Source: Haloarcula nitratireducens
GTDB lineage: Archaea; Halobacteriota; Halobacteria; Halobacteriales; Haloarculaceae
DNA: 49,634 bases
Assembly: GCF_019599505.1 (NCBI RefSeq)
Contig: NZ_RKLT01000023.1
Coordinates: forward strand, 1 to 49,634
Direction: 5' to 3'
The notes below the pieces were generated by a model that saw only the letters and a list, made by a program, of their open reading frames with translations, did no database searches and was not told the origin of the DNA. This document shows, in pieces, positions 3,876-49,122 of the stretch; within the stretch, counting starts at the first letter, position 1; each line of letters opens with the position of its first letter. Made by a program: the position numbers and the translations under genes.

Positions 3876-5228
3876 ATGAGCGACACGTTTGTGGTCGTCG
3901 GCGGTGACGCTGCGGGGATGAGCGCCGCGAGCAAGGCCAAGCGCGAAGACCCAGAGATGGACGTGGTCGTCTTCGAGAAGGGCGAGTGGGTGTCCTACGC
4001 GGCCTGCGGAATGCCCTACTACGTCAAAGGCGAGGTCGAGGACCTGAACGACTTGGTCACCGTGACGCCCGAGGAGTTCCGCGACGAGCGCGATATCGAT
4101 CTCCGGACCGGCCACGAAGTCATCGGCATCGACCCCGGGGCCGAAACCGTCACCGTCAGCGGTGATGGCAAGACGTTCGAACAGCCCTACGACCACCTCC
4201 TCATCGCGACGGGCGCAAGCGCTATCGAACCACCGTTTGACGGACTCGGCCTCGACGGCGTGTTCACCATTCATGCCATGGACGAGGCCGACGCTATTGA
4301 GAACTACGTCGCTGCACACTCACCCGACTCCGCAGCTATCGTCGGCGGCGGGTACGTCGGCATCGAGATGGTCGAGGCGCTGTCGGCACACGGCATCGAC
4401 GTCCACCTCTACGAGATGCTGCCACACGTCCTCCAGCCGTTCGGTGAGGCGGTGGCAGAAGCCGTCGAGGATCATCTCCGGGAGCAGGGAGTCCAGTTGC
4501 ATCTTGCCACCGCCGTCTCGGGCTTCACGGGTGCCGAGCGGGTTGAACGTGTTACCCTTGATGACGAATCCCATCCCGCCGATATTGCCATCGTCGGCGT
4601 CGGTGTCGAATCGAACACCGACCTCGCGGCAGACGCCGGCATCGAGCTGGGTGAAACCGGGGCAATCGCGACCGACGAGTACGGCCGAACGAACTACGAA
4701 ACTATCTACGCTGCGGGCGACTGCGCGGAGGCACGCCACGTCGTAACCGGCAACTCGGACCACGTGCCGCTGGCGCTGACGGCTAATCGCGCCGGCCGAG
4801 CCATCGGCCAGACCGTCGCCGGCAACCCGGAACAGGTCGGAGAGATTGCCGGGACGGCCATCGTCAAGGCGTTCGACCTGGGTGCCGCCCGGACCGGAAT
4901 CGTCGACGAGGAGCAGGCTCGAGAGGCTGGTTTTGACCCCGTCTCGATGACGATATCGGCACCGACGCGGGCCCACTACTATCCCGGTGCTTCCGAACTC
5001 ACGGTCACGCTGCTGGCCGACCGGGACTCCGGTCGGTTGCTGGGTGGGAGCGTGGTCGGTCAGGAAGGCGCGAAGCGCATCGACACGGTCGCGACGGCAC
5101 TCACAGCCGGTATGACGGTGACCGAGCTCCGGAACGCAGACCTAGCGTACGCGCCGCCGTTCAGCCCCGTTTGGGACCCGATTCTCACGGCGGCGAAAGT
5201 CCTCGAGGGAGAGGTAGCGGACGAATGA
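3876..5228 (+). CDS. CoA-disulfide reductase-like FAD/NAD(P)H oxidoreductase
   Basis: The 450-residue protein has the layout of the single-cysteine pyridine nucleotide-disulfide reductases (CoA-disulfide reductase, NADH-dependent persulfide reductase, NADH oxidase). Residues 4-15 form the FAD motif VVVGGDAAGMSAA. Cys44 in SYAACGMPYY is the redox cysteine. GGGYVGIEMVEAL near residue 156 is the NAD(P)H motif, and YAAGDCAEA is the second FAD contact. The C-terminal dimerisation domain ends with YAPPFSPVWDP. In this family the enzyme reduces CoA disulfides or CoA persulfides. The sulfur-rich neighbours favour a persulfide or polysulfide substrate. Its stop overlaps the start of the M20 hydrolase. 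Confidence 0.9.
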   Translation: MSDTFVVVGGDAAGMSAASKAKREDPEMDVVVFEKGEWVSYAACGMPYYVKGEVEDLNDLVTVTPEEFRDERDIDLRTGHEVIGIDPGAETVTVSGDGKTFEQPYDHLLIATGASAIEPPFDGLGLDGVFTIHAMDEADAIENYVAAHSPDSAAIVGGGYVGIEMVEALSAHGIDVHLYEMLPHVLQPFGEAVAEAVEDHLREQGVQLHLATAVSGFTGAERVERVTLDDESHPADIAIVGVGVESNTDLAADAGIELGETGAIATDEYGRTNYETIYAAGDCAEARHVVTGNSDHVPLALTANRAGRAIGQTVAGNPEQVGEIAGTAIVKAFDLGAARTGIVDEEQAREAGFDPVSMTISAPTRAHYYPGASELTVTLLADRDSGRLLGGSVVGQEGAKRIDTVATALTAGMTVTELRNADLAYAPPFSPVWDPILTAAKVLEGEVADE

Positions 5229-31147: not shown

Positions 31148-31161
31148 ATCAGCACCTCACT

Positions 31162-31190
31162 GAATCATTGAGTCATTGAATCAGTGATTC
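31162..31190. repeat. Satellite of the 8-bp phased GANTC repeat
   Basis: GAATC at 31162, GAGTC at 31170, GAATC at 31178 and GATTC at 31186 are spaced exactly eight bases apart, with consensus TGANTCAN. It is the same pattern as the repeats around the ParA gene 15 kb away. It borders the degenerate module at 31192-31350. Confidence 0.7.
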
Positions 31191-31191
31191 T

Positions 31192-39945: not shown

Positions 39946-40084
39946 CGGACGTACGCTCAGTTGCGTTTCTCGAACTATCGGTAGGAAGCTCTGTCCTCAT
40001 CGAATGAGTACGACGGAGTAGCTCACAGCGGAAGTCTACTGACAAGCCCACCGGGAAGAACGTATTCTAATAGTACACTTCATC

Positions 40085-40113
40085 GACTCACTGGATCAAT
40101 GATTCAGTGATTC
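40085..40113. repeat. Second satellite of the 8-bp phased GANTC repeat
   Basis: GACTC at 40085, GGATC at 40093, GATTC at 40101 and GATTC at 40109 keep an exact 8-base phase. It lies in the gap between the TnpB fragment and the AI-2E transporter gene. Nothing else is recognised in 39946-40237. Confidence 0.65.
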
Positions 40114-40237
40114 ACTCCACTGCGGATTCAATAGTCTTCCATCAGTTTGTCAGCATTGTGCGTTGATAGATTGAAATGTGGCCCCACAAGCGGATTCAGG
40201 CATCGGTTCAGCGCGCCAGAGTAGCGATAATGCCTGC

Positions 40238-43692: not shown

Positions 43693-45519
43693 ATTTTTCA
43701 GAGGTCTGAGGTGGCTTTCATAGACTGATTTCGTTCACCGATTAGACGGACTCTTTAGCCTCTCCAGCTATCTCCTGATGTGGGTGTGACGCGTGAGTCA
43801 CGCCGGACTGTCTTCCGTCGAATTGCTCGCCAACCGACTATCAAGTGGTCCGTCTATACTTCAAACCCGCTGTATGACCGCGCTTCACTTGCCGGATTAG
43901 AGTCGGATATTCGCGCCGTCGCAGGAGCTTGGTTCGATCACGTCCACCACGAGTCAGTTGAGAAGTTCGTTTGCTCACTTCCGCTAGCGTATTTTCAGTT
44001 CAACGTACACGACCGCTACGTGGGACCAACTCGCTACGAGATTGACACACTATTTCGGTTATTCGTCCTGAAGGAACTCCACGGATGGGAGCACCAGACC
44101 GCACTCTGCGAGTACCTCGAAAGCCATCTCGAACTCTGTGAATGTCTTGGGCTGGGTGCCGTTCCCGACCAATCGACACTCTGGCGCAGTGGCACACGCG
44201 CTTCAACGATGAGCTTCGCGAGACGGTCCAGAAAGCGGCTCGAACGATTCTCATCAAAGCGCAGAACGCCGACGTCACCGTCCCCCGCGAACCGGAGCAG
44301 ATCCTCCCGGCTCGTTGCGATGACGTGGACGAATCGGTTCCAGACGACCGAGCCATTCTGGACAACGCCGATAGAGTCACCGAGCACGTCAGCCGTGTCG
44401 TGTTCCCTGCGTTCTCGCTCAATCGTGGCGAGGGCTGTGAGGTCCACGAGCACGCTTTTTGGGACCTACAGACGTATCTCGGACTGCGCGAGCGGCTGGC
44501 TGCAAACGAGGGTGCTCGCAGTTTCGTCCACGAGTCAACGCGGGAGCGGACACCACTCGGACACGCCCACCGCGACCACATTCGTGATCTCTCTATCGAG
44601 CAGATTCGAGCGATGTACCGGCAGGCGATTCGACGACTCATTGATGAGGTCGCAGAGACGGAGAAGTTCTTCCGGGCAGGGATCGTCGCTATCGACATCA
44701 CCGAGGCTGCTCCCTTCACCGGCGACCGGACCGGCCACGAGGACGAGATCATCGGGACGAAAGAACAGACCGACGAGTACGCCTATCAGTGGGCGACCGT
44801 CTAGCTGGTCGGGAACGCTGTCCCACTCGTCCTCGATGCCCGCCCGGTACGGAAAGGCGAGTCACGACTAGAAATCGTCGAGGACTTGCTGAATTCGGCT
44901 GAAGAGCTCGTTCACGTCGATAACGTACTGATGGACCGGGAGTTCGATAGCCAGCACGTCCTGGAGATGATTAGTCAGCGCGGGCACTCCTACGTCGTTC
45001 CGAAGCGGATGCAGACCAGCGAGAAAGCCCAGGCCAAGCGATTGCTCCAGCGCGATCAAGGCCGATATGAAACTGACCGGAAGCTCCACCTCGGCAAGAA
45101 CGAGTGGCACGAGACGAGGCTGATCTACCGACGGAAAGAGGACTCCGAGCACGACGATCACCGGCAGTATTCGGTGTTCATGACGAATCGGGGGAGCGGA
45201 CACCTTACGGAGTACGGCTACAGGTGGGAGATCGAGAGTGGGTACAGGTCGATCAAACGGTTCATGGCGGCGACAACGTCGAAGAATTTTGGGCTGCGAT
45301 TCTTCTACTTCGCGTTTGCGTGTCTGCTGTACTCGATCTGGCGAGCTGTCGATCTCCTCGTCCAAGCCGAATTGACTGGCGAGTATGAGCACTCACCGGT
45401 GATTACAGCGGACAACACGCTGACGCTGCTGAAGAAGGAAACTGGAATCGGGTAGAGAGACACTCTGTCTGGGTTAGCGCGCCGTCTGAGTGGCTACACT
45501 ATTGGACGTCTGAAAAATC
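43693..45519 (+). mobile_element. Decayed DDE insertion sequence with terminal inverted repeats
   Basis: ATTTTTCAGAGGTC at 43693-43706 matches, in inverted orientation, GACGTCTGAAAAAT at 45506-45519 in 13 of 14 positions. These repeats flank the broken transposase and define an element of about 1.83 kb. I see no convincing target duplication directly outside the repeats. The element must need trans-acting transposase, if it moves at all. Confidence 0.7.
43780..45455 (+). pseudogene. IS4-like transposase broken by a frameshift and a stop
   Basis: The first frame (43780 to about 44185) reads PTIKWSVYTSNPLYD and LFVLKELHGWEHQTALCEYL, ending at PDQSTLWR. A one-base shift near 44185 moves into the frame that continues WHTRFNDELRETVQKAA. 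That frame is interrupted by a TAG at 44802-44804 and then resumes LVGNAVPLVLDARPVRKGES. Catalytic acids of the DDE site can be read in VAIDITEA, VLMDREFDSQ and YRWEIESGYRSIKR. Fully joined it would have about 555 residues. The overall family is IS4-like; a subgroup name cannot be assigned from memory. Confidence 0.82.
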
Positions 45520-45772
45520 TGCCTATACGGTTGGAGATTTGATAATAATGGCCGCTTGGAGAGTGATCTGGAGCAGTTTCCGCTGACTGAACCGGTCAAA
45601 TTCGCGCATCACAGGCCCGCTAAACCCACTATAGTCTCAACTTCACAACTGGTGTCTCGAATCTATTGTGGAATAGGGTTTACAGCACCTCTCCTCAAAA
45701 GTTACCACGTTCCCTCTCTGCATCACTGGTATCCTATACCGCTTTCTCTCGGAGTCACTGAATCATTGATTA
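45520..45772. repeat. Gap after the IS with phased GANTC repeats at its end
   Basis: Bases 45520-45750 contain no gene. GAGTC at 45752, GAATC at 45760 and GATTA at 45768 continue the 8-base phase seen elsewhere and overlap the stop codon of the par partner gene. The repeats therefore bracket the par operon on both sides. Confidence 0.6.
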
Positions 45773-46179
45773 CTCGCTTCGTTGGCCAGTTCTCGGATTT
45801 TCTCCTTTGTCTCCTCGCGATGTTCCTCGAACGCGACCTCGAAAATTCCCCGGTAGAAGTGCTTGTTCTTTTCGAGGGTAAGGTCCTCGCGTTTCAGCTG
45901 TTTTTTCAGGCGAGTGAACGTAACTTCGATATCTTCGCTTTGTTCTGGTTCGACGTATATCGTCGCTGAGTCCCAGTCCTCGCGAATGTTGAGCTCCTCA
46001 GTGTCGTCACCTTCGTCCGACGACGCAGTCTCGTCCGGTGACGACTGCTCTTCAGATGCTGACGTCGCTTCCGACGTTTCTGTGGTCTCGGTAGCTTCGG
46101 TCGCTTCATCTGTATCCGCTGGCGCGTCGTTATCTTCGTCAACTGGATTGTCGAACCGCTCGTCCATTCCTCGTGGCAT
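45763..46179 (-). CDS. Acidic partner protein of the ParA operon
   Basis: The 138-residue protein starts MPRGMDERFDNPVDEDNDAP one base after the ParA stop. Residues 10-65 are a very acidic, Thr/Glu/Ser-rich disordered region. Residues 70-138 are more ordered, with SATIYVEPEQSEDIEVTFTR followed by basic and amphipathic helices (KKQLKREDLTLEKNKHFYRG). It lacks the ParB nuclease-like and HTH motifs. Its position suits a centromere-binding adaptor, which would use the ordered basic C-terminal half. The role is inferred from context. Confidence 0.7.
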   Translation of the reverse strand: MPRGMDERFDNPVDEDNDAPADTDEATEATETTETSEATSASEEQSSPDETASSDEGDDTEELNIREDWDSATIYVEPEQSEDIEVTFTRLKKQLKREDLTLEKNKHFYRGIFEVAFEEHREETKEKIRELANEASNQ

Positions 46180-46180
46180 A

Positions 46181-47092
46181 TTAGGCCTCCACCTCTGCTT
46201 TGTCGAATGCACGTTTCATCGTCCCAGCAATTTCTAGGAACACGTCCCGTTCGACTTGCTGGTCGTTCGAATCCTCCCATTCAAAGATGTCACAGCCGTT
46301 GTCCCAAGCTCGCTGTATCGCTACTCGCATTGGGAGTTCGAAGATCGGTGCCATCGATGCGAATGACTCGTCGAACGCCTTCAGGAACTTCTGTGACTGA
46401 CCGTCGTCCCGGTACATGTTCGCCAAGAGGCCGACGATAGCGATCTCGACCTGTTGATTATCCTCTATCGACTCGAGTTGGTCCCAGAGGTCGTCAAGTG
46501 CATCTCGTGAGGTCGCTTGTGTTTGAGCCGCGAGGAAGACGTTCTGGGCGGCGATAAACGCGGCGTCTGTAAGTACCGACAGGTCTGGCGGGCAATCGAT
46601 GAGGATGTAGTCGTAGGTATAGCCCTCCTCGACTAGCTCATCAAGCGCGACTTTCAGCGAGAGACGAGCACTCGCATCATCCATCCAGTCACGGGCGAGT
46701 CCCATGTCTTTGTGACTCGGAACGATATCGAAGTTCAGGTGGTCGTACTCGTCGGCGTCGACCACGATTTCGGAAAGCGCTGTATCGTGCGTGCGTGGGT
46801 TGTCGACAAGTACGTCCAGGAGGTTCCCATCGTCAGTGGTGAGCGTATTTGGGAGCTCGTTTTTTGGATTCGATGCATCGTTCTCGTCTCCGGGACCGAG
46901 CCCGAGACCCTTCGTCAGGTCAGCTTGCGGGTCCAGATCGATTGCCAGCACGTCGTGGCCGCGAGCTGCCAGTGCTGCTGCGCTATTGATTGTTGCAGTT
47001 GTTTTCCCGGTGCCACCTTTCTGGTTCCCGAACGCGACCGTGGGAATTCCAGTTGACGGAAAGACTCCCCAGCCACGCGGTGTCTCAGACAT
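46181..47092 (-). CDS. parA: ParA-family partition ATPase
   Basis: The 303-residue protein has the deviant Walker A motif FGNQKGGTGKTTATINSAAA (residues 21-40) with the signature lysine Lys25, Walker A' DLDPQADLTKGLGLG, and Walker B YDYILIDCPPDLSVLTDAA. It is the ParA/Soj type that binds ATP and DNA nonspecifically and moves plasmids apart. There is no N-terminal HTH extension, so it is the small type, where the partner protein usually provides repression. Phased GANTC repeats lie between the likely TATA element and the start codon. Confidence 0.94.
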   Translation of the reverse strand: MSETPRGWGVFPSTGIPTVAFGNQKGGTGKTTATINSAAALAARGHDVLAIDLDPQADLTKGLGLGPGDENDASNPKNELPNTLTTDDGNLLDVLVDNPRTHDTALSEIVVDADEYDHLNFDIVPSHKDMGLARDWMDDASARLSLKVALDELVEEGYTYDYILIDCPPDLSVLTDAAFIAAQNVFLAAQTQATSRDALDDLWDQLESIEDNQQVEIAIVGLLANMYRDDGQSQKFLKAFDESFASMAPIFELPMRVAIQRAWDNGCDIFEWEDSNDQQVERDVFLEIAGTMKRAFDKAEVEA

Positions 47093-47808
47093 AGTCCAAT
47101 CATTGAATCACTGACTCATAAATTTACGGCAGACATTTGGCTATCCGATATTTGTGTGGAAATCCCCTATTCGCCCTGTAGCGGAGCGCTATCGCGAAAC
47201 CATGTCCGATTATGAGTGGATCTTGAAGAGCATCAGTGAATCAATAACTCACTGACTCTTGGATCTTATTCCACCGTTATTCACTTTTGGCTCCTCAACA
47301 ATACCGTTCTAGCACCCGTGCAACAGGGGAAAATGACTCATTTAGGTTTTGGAGCAAAGCTCGATAGATCTTTGAATTGATGATGTAGGGATTCATTGAC
47401 TCCGATATAGAAGCTGCGTGGACTCCCCTACTCTGCGACTCTGGTATTCATGGAATCTATGACTCATCGAATCAGTAACTATTGAAAGCATTGATAGAAT
47501 AATCAATAGCTCACGAATTCACTGATCCTTGGGATCTATGATTCCTTGACTCAGTGGTTTAAGACTTCATGTATTCTTGTATTCGCGAATTCAATAACGT
47601 CTTGATTTCTACTAACCCTGATCTGCTGTTCGAGCCTACTCCAGGCTCGATGGGGGCTTGATTCACGAATTTCAGTATCATCGCTGCCCCTTCAAGTAAC
47701 ACTCATTGATTCACAGATTCATTGAGTACGTTGCTCTATAATTCAAAGCTGGGAAATCCAGTTGCGCTGTCGTCTGTCGCTAAGCAAGAGGAGTCGACCT
47801 GAGGCGGT
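47093..47808. repeat. Non-coding A/T-rich region with phased GANTC repeats
   Basis: No gene is seen in 716 bases. GANTC-type words in exact 8-base phase begin at 47097, 47105 and 47113 (the ParA promoter), at 47238, 47246 and 47254, at 47390 and 47398, at 47453, 47461 and 47469, at 47524, 47532, 47540 and 47548, and at 47700, 47708 and 47716. The consensus is close to TGANTCAN, itself nearly palindromic. The A/T richness and the position next to parA suggest a centromere and perhaps an origin. No replication initiator gene is in the window. Confidence 0.75.
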
Positions 47809-49122
47809 TTACGCGATGTCGGGGTCGAAGGCGGCGGCGAGCTTATCATGCATATATTGTCGCCGCAGCTTCCGGGCTCGTGCTTCTGAGAGGTAGTTCT
47901 GTAAAACGACGTCGGCGCTGGCACTCCCCTGTTCGGCTGCAATTTCATCGAGACTACCGAGAACGACGTCAAGTGACGCAGAATATGCATCGTACCAGAA
48001 TCGTCGCCCCATTTTTGGCGTAGGTGAGACACCTTCGATCTCGTTAGGTAGTCCAGCCCGACTAGCGAGATTTGTGAACCGATTCCAGACTGTCCATCGA
48101 GAGATGTGGCCGTTCGAGGCGTGTGGTGACGGGAATAGGTAGCCATCCCAGTCGTCGCGGTCAGCTAATGTAGCAAGGCGTTCTTCGAGGACGTCCTGTC
48201 CATAGAGCAGCGAGACCTCTCCAGGACCGTTTTTTCTTGCTTCGAAGTCGATATATGGAACTGTCTCAGTCGGGACATCGAGGTTAAATTGACGAGTGTG
48301 GAGGCTGGCAACCTCATTTGGCCGAAGTCCCCAAGCGCATAAGGCGAGGACGAGAAGACGCTCTTCCTGTTCAGTCGCTGTTTGGTAGAGTGCTCGGACA
48401 TGGGTAGTATCGAGACATGGCGTATCAGCATCATCAGACGAGCCCTGTGACCAGTCAAATTCGTCATCAAGGCCATCTGCAGGGTTGATAGCGGCCCATT
48501 TCCGTCGAACGAGATGAGCATACCAGTTTGAGACAGCTGAGTGAATCCGACGCTTGGTTTGTCCGCCATCAAGCGTTGCGTGCAGCCGGTCGAATGCCCC
48601 CCAACAGGCATCAACCGCTCTGTAGGCTGGTGTGTCGCTATCGCGTGCTATCGGTGTTATGAGGTCGTCTGATTCGTTCTCAGCCTGATAGGCGCAAACG
48701 TATCGGTTGAGTCGATATTGGAGTGTCTTGATCGACGATTCTGCGAGCCCCTTGCGCTCCCGGCGAGAGGTGAGGAAGGATTCGAGTGCTTCGATAGTCC
48801 GCTCGTGGTCTGTTGCCCACTCATACGCTGTTTCTTCAGCCTGTAACGCTAAATCCTCACGCCAGAACTCCGCGAACGTGCGGTCATGATGCTCCCGCAG
48901 AGCATAGAGGAGTGGACGAAGCTCGTGCTCACGAAGCCATTTGTATGTCGGTTTTTCACGCTCTGGGTCGAGGTCATCGGCTGTCATTAGTGGAGCGACG
49001 ACGGCCCAGTATGCTTCGACGAGCTCCTCGCGGTTGAGCAGCGTCCAGGAGACATCATCGACACTTTCCCACTCGCGGTCGGAATCTGTGGATGTGACGT
49101 CGCTCACAGTGTCGTACTCCAC
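47809..49122 (-). CDS. Tyrosine recombinase/integrase
   Basis: The 437-residue protein has an N-terminal SAM-like DNA-binding region (residues 95-200) with LAESSIKTLQYRLNRYVCAY. The catalytic domain has the first arginine in ALCAWGLRPNEVASLHTRQF. Near the C terminus GRRFWYDAYSASL occupies the place of the HxxR box, with Lys at the usual His position, and the probable nucleophile tyrosine is in VVLQNYLSEARARKL. The weak box II is a peculiarity of some haloarchaeal integrase-like proteins. Such enzymes integrate elements or resolve plasmid multimers. Its position beyond the par region suggests multimer resolution. No attachment site is identified. Confidence 0.85.
   Translation of the reverse strand: MEYDTVSDVTSTDSDREWESVDDVSWTLLNREELVEAYWAVVAPLMTADDLDPEREKPTYKWLREHELRPLLYALREHHDRTFAEFWREDLALQAEETAYEWATDHERTIEALESFLTSRRERKGLAESSIKTLQYRLNRYVCAYQAENESDDLITPIARDSDTPAYRAVDACWGAFDRLHATLDGGQTKRRIHSAVSNWYAHLVRRKWAAINPADGLDDEFDWSQGSSDDADTPCLDTTHVRALYQTATEQEERLLVLALCAWGLRPNEVASLHTRQFNLDVPTETVPYIDFEARKNGPGEVSLLYGQDVLEERLATLADRDDWDGYLFPSPHASNGHISRWTVWNRFTNLASRAGLPNEIEGVSPTPKMGRRFWYDAYSASLDVVLGSLDEIAAEQGSASADVVLQNYLSEARARKLRRQYMHDKLAAAFDPDIA

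Follow-up and report, generated by a model that had tools for sequence, protein, structure and literature searches.

A phased array of 8-bp repeats lies upstream of parA in a contig of Haloarcula nitratireducens and recurs, with a conserved unit and the same gene order, at loci of one class of ParA and its small partner protein across haloarchaea. Comparison of these loci makes it probable that the array is the binding target of the partner, a putative member of the DUF8160 family, and that it serves as both plasmid centromere and parA operator.

Results

A phased array next to a partition cassette

We analyzed 49,634 nucleotides of H. nitratireducens DNA (assembly GCF_019599505.1, contig NZ_RKLT01000023.1, positions 1–49,634, forward strand), and refer to this whole stretch as the window. 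The parA gene (46181–47092, minus strand) encodes a Walker-type partition ATPase of 303 residues with the KGGTGKT motif, a class that we call class A. The protein matched Pfam AAA_31 over residues 18–217 of 303 (2.4e-34), CbiA, and the PHROG 164 ParA-like partition protein family (3.7e-41); Pfam listed no domain ahead of AAA_31, as in ParA proteins without an N-terminal DNA-binding domain. Both cassette genes read away from the array, with the partner gene (45763–46167, minus strand) directly after parA. The 134-residue product of the partner gene begins with an acidic tail, and its C-terminal domain is strongly conserved. A small partner directly after parA, the order of a ParABS cassette, is given by the coordinates in the window and by the annotated neighbors in 11 related loci (L001–L011). 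The array is flanked on its far side by a tyrosine-recombinase-like gene (47809–49122, minus strand), a frequent neighbor with relatives on 115 plasmids and a weak match to Pfam Phage_integrase, below the cut-off.

The 716 bases at 47093–47808 contain 18 exact GANTC words, compared with a mean of 5.1 and a maximum of 14 in 2,000 dinucleotide shuffles, and six GANTC pairs exactly 8 bp apart, compared with a mean of 0.04 and a maximum of 1. The self-match at lag 8 was 0.369 against an expected 0.255 (z = 7.0), a value matched by none of the 2,000 shuffles, and lags 16 and 24 were likewise above expectation. These counts bear out the claim of an earlier note on this DNA that an 8-bp phased GANTC array stands beside parA. 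Chance or base composition as the origin of the array is ruled out by the shuffles and by the absence of the unit from 600 bp inside parA at every locus. A repeat search of 45400–47830 listed a single palindrome, 16 nt long and with arms that overlap; the remaining entries were pairs far apart.

Some details of the earlier description needed revision. It had counted at least six clusters in 8-base steps; five are exact (47105/47113; 47390/47398; 47453/47461/47469; 47540/47548; 47708/47716), whereas the words of the sixth, 47238/47254, stand two steps apart. In the four-unit run that it had read at 47524, 47532, 47540 and 47548, the last two are exact GANTC words, while 47524 is GATCC and 47532 is GGATC, with one mismatch each. 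The unit is best described as TGANTCA plus one free base, and the pattern continues beyond the 716 bases in which it was first noticed.

On the minus strand, the upstream array consists of a promoter-proximal two-unit block (47104–47118), placed at –26 and –18 relative to the parA start and overlapping the end of a TATA-like TTTATGA; a three-unit block (47237–47259); a two-unit block (47389–47403); a block in which three exact GANTC words follow one another every 8 bp (47453–47474); a block of four words, two exact and two with one mismatch each (47524–47553); and a distal two-unit block (47707–47722). The promoter-proximal block is the proposed operator. A two-unit downstream box on the same strand (45751–45765) begins on the stop codon of the partner gene, and two secondary four-unit arrays, with at most one mismatch per unit and no strand assigned, occupy intergenic gaps at 31161–31191 and 40084–40114. 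When 200-base windows over the 49.6 kb were ranked by their lag-8 value, the first seven listed started at 47201–47501 and the next three at 45601–45701, around the end of the partner gene. GANTC pairs separated by three bases numbered 13 in the whole window against 2.1 expected, with six in the upstream array, three in one short array at 31162–31190, one at the end of the partner gene (45752) and three elsewhere.

The array accompanies class A ParA across haloarchaea

A tblastn search found ParA relatives of 74–88% identity on 23 plasmids, plus one of 39%. Chained 8-bp GANTC words were present upstream of parA in all 11 class A loci L001–L011, studied with flanks of up to 4 kb, and also before parA in L013 and L014, for which the upstream DNA is partial. 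Searching 13 class A plasmids in full (~3.07 Mb), we found 72 three-unit arrays, 62 of them within ~1.5 kb of parA; the reversed pattern, used as a control in this search, gave no three-unit array, and none was found in whole-record searches of five records without class A ParA. Two of those five (L015 and L017) keep a relative of the partner with two chained GANTC words right after it; they have no ParA match and no three-unit array, which counts against our preferred reading.

At the level of genomes, class A ParA (E ≤ 1e-60) was found in 53 of 391 Halobacteria genomes, at 54 loci, and an exact four-unit array in 48. The array was present in 40 of the 53 genomes with class A ParA against 8 of the 338 without (Fisher p = 3e-35), the overlap (40 of the 48 array genomes) being scored by genome. 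Because the ParA searches began with a loose first look and then scored no more than six candidates in each genome, the absence of ParA from a given genome is not certain. The earlier note had named equal density of the pattern across unrelated haloarchaeal DNA as one of the results that would refute its reading; the distribution over haloarchaeal genomes is far from equal, but the pattern does turn up in viral contigs that lack this cassette. Of the eight array genomes without a detected class A ParA, one was inspected: in G320 (locus L114, G320:C1, 2085–2270), where no class A ParA was found, a 3.6-Mb contig carries nine chained 8-bp units, apparently a genuine array that lacks this ParA.

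Upstream of parA at the 54 loci and in the window, lag 8 was the strongest of the lags 5–40 at 53 of 55 loci and among the top three at all 55 (54 of 54 when the window is excluded), the z values of individual loci resting on base composition.

Repeats beside a plasmid gene could also be replication iterons or part of an origin. The array region of the window is poorer in G+C than the window itself (43 vs. 58%), as an origin might be, and orc1/cdc6 is annotated nearby in two of the 11 class A loci. The other nine lack an annotated orc1/cdc6 in the stretch examined, however, and the haloarchaeal origin boxes described in PMC3528665, inverted repeats that terminate in G-strings and accompany orc genes, are unlike the array. 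Judged by annotation in the class A stretches, the adjacent gene expected of a haloarchaeal orc1/cdc6 origin is thus too rare for such an origin, and we consider a replication role very improbable.

A second cassette class has a different period

A second group of cassettes, class B, has a ParA with AGGVGKT, a different small acidic partner, an array before parA and sometimes a homologous recombinase alongside. Class B ParA was found in 223 of the 391 genomes, and the period was examined at 30 loci from that search: the top lag was 13, 26 or 39 at 27 of them and another value at three, and lag 8 was never on top. Across the class B loci L118–L147, L018, L022, L036, L041, L047 and L051, most of those tested have a 13-bp phased array upstream. 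The 13-bp motif varies among class B subgroups. Six loci with other ParA classes showed neither the 8-bp nor the 13-bp period, and at least two of them have partners annotated as PF26492, which weighs against our preferred reading.

These comparisons bear on which protein reads the array. As a frequent neighbor, the recombinase could use it as a recombination or accessory site in resolving plasmid multimers, and an extra array of 14 units on NZ_CP119793, at the 3′ end of another recombinase, would fit such a role. The similarity of the recombinases does not follow the period, however: recombinases 72% identical to that of the window (L018, L036 and L041) adjoin 13-bp arrays, while those of 50–52% (L001, L003 and L004) and 78% identity (L002 and L008) adjoin 8-bp arrays. 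Moreover, among the 11 class A loci studied with up to 4 kb of flanking DNA, only 7 contain a full-length relative, and all 11 contain the array. As class B loci beside a homologous recombinase have the 13-bp period, the array period goes with the class of ParA and partner. For this reason, we rejected the recombination site as the main reading; it is retained at low weight, as a very unlikely one, because of the extra array on NZ_CP119793, and the recombinase-like gene is probably not the source of the reader.

The arrays of NZ_CP119793, a class A plasmid, also count against our preferred reading. Only three of its ten three-unit arrays are at parA, and six belong to two copies of the extra array, in which the 14 units form four blocks ~120–125 bp apart (L148, covering 305000–309000, at 1426–1818; L149 at 1478–1870). 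The adjoining recombinase is of the tyrosine type and has no significant BLAST similarity to that of the window.

The units might alternatively be read by a host or third protein, the tie to class A ParA reflecting linkage only. TGANTCA arrays in contigs without a class A cassette are what such a reader would leave. Against this, all 54 class A loci have 8 bp among their three strongest lags, and it is on top at none of the 30 class B loci and none of the six loci with other ParA classes; we give this explanation hardly any weight. Between the two products of the cassette, the partner is the better candidate for the reader, because the Pfam scan showed no domain of ParA beyond the ATPase.

Anatomy and conservation of the array

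Over 53 distinct upstream regions, the unit was conserved as T (0.82), G (0.97), A (0.99), N, T (0.96), C (0.94) and A (0.87), followed by a free base. These regions contain 5–22 chained units (mean 14.7), reaching up to 600 bp upstream, and the longest contiguous run per locus is two to six units, with three in the window (at most one mismatch per unit). Where successive units fall in different blocks, the gap between them is most often 114 bp, a value observed 30 times. One feature is invariant: all 53 distinct upstream regions have a block that begins at –26 relative to the parA start and overlaps the end of the TATA-like TTTATGA. At the other end of the cassette, 45 of 55 loci have a second array, two to four units long, that begins on the stop codon of the partner gene. 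At least two units lie near that stop codon at 47 of the 55; of the other eight loci, seven share a different gene end.

We compared substitutions within and around the units in 553 sequence pairs from 47 loci. The proportion of differing positions was 0.129 in the unit cores, 0.385 at the free positions of the unit and 0.256 in the rest and the flanks; the pairs, of 72–95% identity, are not independent, and alignment slips by 8 bases would favor conserved cores. Between the window and a relative whose ParA is 96% identical, the 716 upstream bases are 57% identical in a gapped alignment, yet both retain the 8-bp period.

A separate element, GTCTG[AC]C, sits upstream of the TATA-like box. It occupies 47128–47134 in the window and is shared by the two classes: 46 of 55 class A loci have it at –42 relative to parA, and 16 of 25 class B loci have it between –41 and –45.

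The same pattern outside the cassette

TGANTCA arrays also occur in viral DNA. We found 33 stretches of viral contigs with three perfect units, and no class A ParA, partner or recombinase in the DNA examined around them. In the three tailed-phage contigs that were scanned (L167, L169 and L180), arrays of three to five units precede tail, head and packaging genes or separate them, and may be scattered operators. As the viral contigs have arrays without class A ParA, the pattern by itself is no proof of partition.

The phage arrays would also suit a role in gene regulation only. The array would then be a large operator at which the partner, or else ParA, shuts down the par operon and possibly genes farther away, and partition would use a different site. 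The block at the parA promoter in every distinct upstream region (53 of 53) and the secondary arrays in other intergenic gaps are in line with this. Yet a mean of 14.7 units over up to 600 bp, with a further box after the operon, seems excessive for one promoter, and in plasmid pSM19035 as described in PMC9499535, arrays of one type both overlap promoters and serve as the centromere. We therefore regard an operator without a partition role as unlikely, and favor the array as candidate centromere and operator together.

Family and predicted fold of the partner

The partner has 365 homologues, and the 120 listed are labeled PF26492 (DUF8160); our Pfam scan did not list PF26492 for the partner of the window, nor for P0001, a protein bearing that label. 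An alignment of 44 partner sequences confirmed a strongly conserved C-terminal domain. An AlphaFold model built with 44 close relatives had a mean pLDDT of 51.4, while an AF2 model of the C-terminal 80 residues, with more distant relatives added, reached 85.8. The model contains a short helix at residues 61–64 and longer helices at 74–92, 100–114 and 117–133.

In a ribbon-helix-helix chain, a strand lies just before the first long helix and pairs only in the dimer. The helix order of the model is compatible with such a chain; DSSP assigned no strand, and the stretch where the strand would lie is unstructured. A comparison of the partner profile with haloarchaeal ribbon-helix-helix proteins gave a probability of 5.7% in local and 0.1% in global mode, the local comparison placing the stretch before the helices of the partner on the ribbon-helix-helix strand. 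Searches of the model returned no Foldseek match in the PDB with E ≤ 0.001, five weak matches in a viral structure library, none with E ≤ 0.001, and none with VIA-align, which had a single chain to compare. Profile searches of PDB sequences gave either no match or four weak ones (best E 0.28), with no omega relative listed. The partner may have a ribbon-helix-helix-like fold: the helix order speaks for it, and the missing strand and the lack of significant matches speak against it.

A stretch resembling the partner was also found apart from the array. In L016, from a Halobacterium salinarum plasmid, positions 4001–4222 are unannotated and 84% identical to residues 54–128 of a 138-residue reading of the partner; the stretch lies near a different ParA, and the surrounding DNA examined has no chained 8-bp GANTC words.

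Discussion

Our interpretation is that dimers of the partner would occupy successive TGANTCA units 8 bp apart. As steps of 8 bp place neighbors about three quarters of a helical turn apart, the dimers could wrap the DNA and form a helical track along it. The resulting complex would be the centromere: like a parS site, it would let the ParA ATPase move the plasmid. Before the parA start, the units that reach over the end of the TATA-like box would act as operator, with the partner repressing its own operon: haloarchaeal transcripts often start near the start codon, so a protein on the –26 block would be expected to block transcription. The case for partition is built on the position of the array, its tie to the ParA class and the amount of array. 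The earlier note had linked the array to partition from position; that link has now gained comparative support from the 54 of 54 loci, the 62 of 72 arrays and the different period of the other class.

In the spacing of its units, the array resembles the sites of MetJ, a metabolic repressor that binds as a small dimer to tandem 8-bp near-palindromic met boxes, with few units and no ParA. The array has the same kind of tandem units, but many of them, and a ParA beside them. Among the haloarchaeal cassettes, those of class B share the order of array, parA and small acidic partner and differ in the 13-bp period, with a motif that varies among subgroups, in the ParA and in the partner.

In partition, the closest counterpart is the delta/omega system of pSM19035, which, as presented in PMC9499535, likewise combines a ParA ATPase, a small partner, contiguous repeats shorter than a helical turn over the promoter of the ParA gene and several sites per plasmid. 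There, a small dimer binds each 7-bp repeat, the arrays overlap the promoters of partition genes, and at least four contiguous repeats are required for the activation of ParA (PMC9499535). By analogy, the track of partner dimers may both catch ParA and shut the par promoter. As the longest run in the window is three units, under the four of pSM19035, several blocks may have to act jointly. The systems differ in that pSM19035 is bacterial and its heptads, WATCACW, occur in either direction, while the unit here is an 8-bp near-palindrome (PMC9499535). A ribbon-helix-helix partner, as in pSM19035-like systems, is only putative for the cassette described here. Given the sub-helical-turn repeats and small partner described beside parA in pSM19035 (PMC9499535), the earlier designation of the array as a new centromere type was too strong. 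We regard it as a variant of the short contiguous repeats known from pSM19035, not previously described in the open-licence literature searched; that search found no description of these haloarchaeal arrays, which is no proof that none is in print.

Two archaeal systems covered in PMC5120986 offer further parallels. AspA-ParB-ParA of the Sulfolobus plasmid pNOB8 is also an archaeal plasmid partition system with its site upstream of the operon and a protein covering DNA over a distance; it uses one 23-bp palindrome, a winged helix-turn-helix protein and three genes, in contrast to the many 8-bp units and two genes here (PMC5120986). SegAB resembles the class A cassette in its ParA-like ATPase, its small DNA-binding partner (predicted in our case) and its sites upstream of the cassette, but has two imperfect palindromic sites instead of a phased array (PMC5120986).

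The appearance of centromeres on archaeal chromosomes and plasmids was named an open question in a 2016 review (PMC5120986). The present candidate is precise and widespread, comes with a named partner protein and unit, and can be tested in laboratory haloarchaea, with class B and its different period as a built-in control. A broader conjecture, which we hold only tentatively, is that the class of partner fixes the pitch of the centromere at 8 or 13 bp, neither a whole helical turn, with cassettes exchangeable beside one kind of recombinase and scattered arrays serving as extra centromere sites; the geometry of the protein helix might then sort plasmids into compatibility groups. If the partner class does set the pitch, the cassettes would provide a clean system for studying how helix spacing determines partition complexes and plasmid incompatibility. 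The centromeres of archaeal plasmids are still poorly known, and the array is probably the handle by which these plasmids are passed to both daughter cells.
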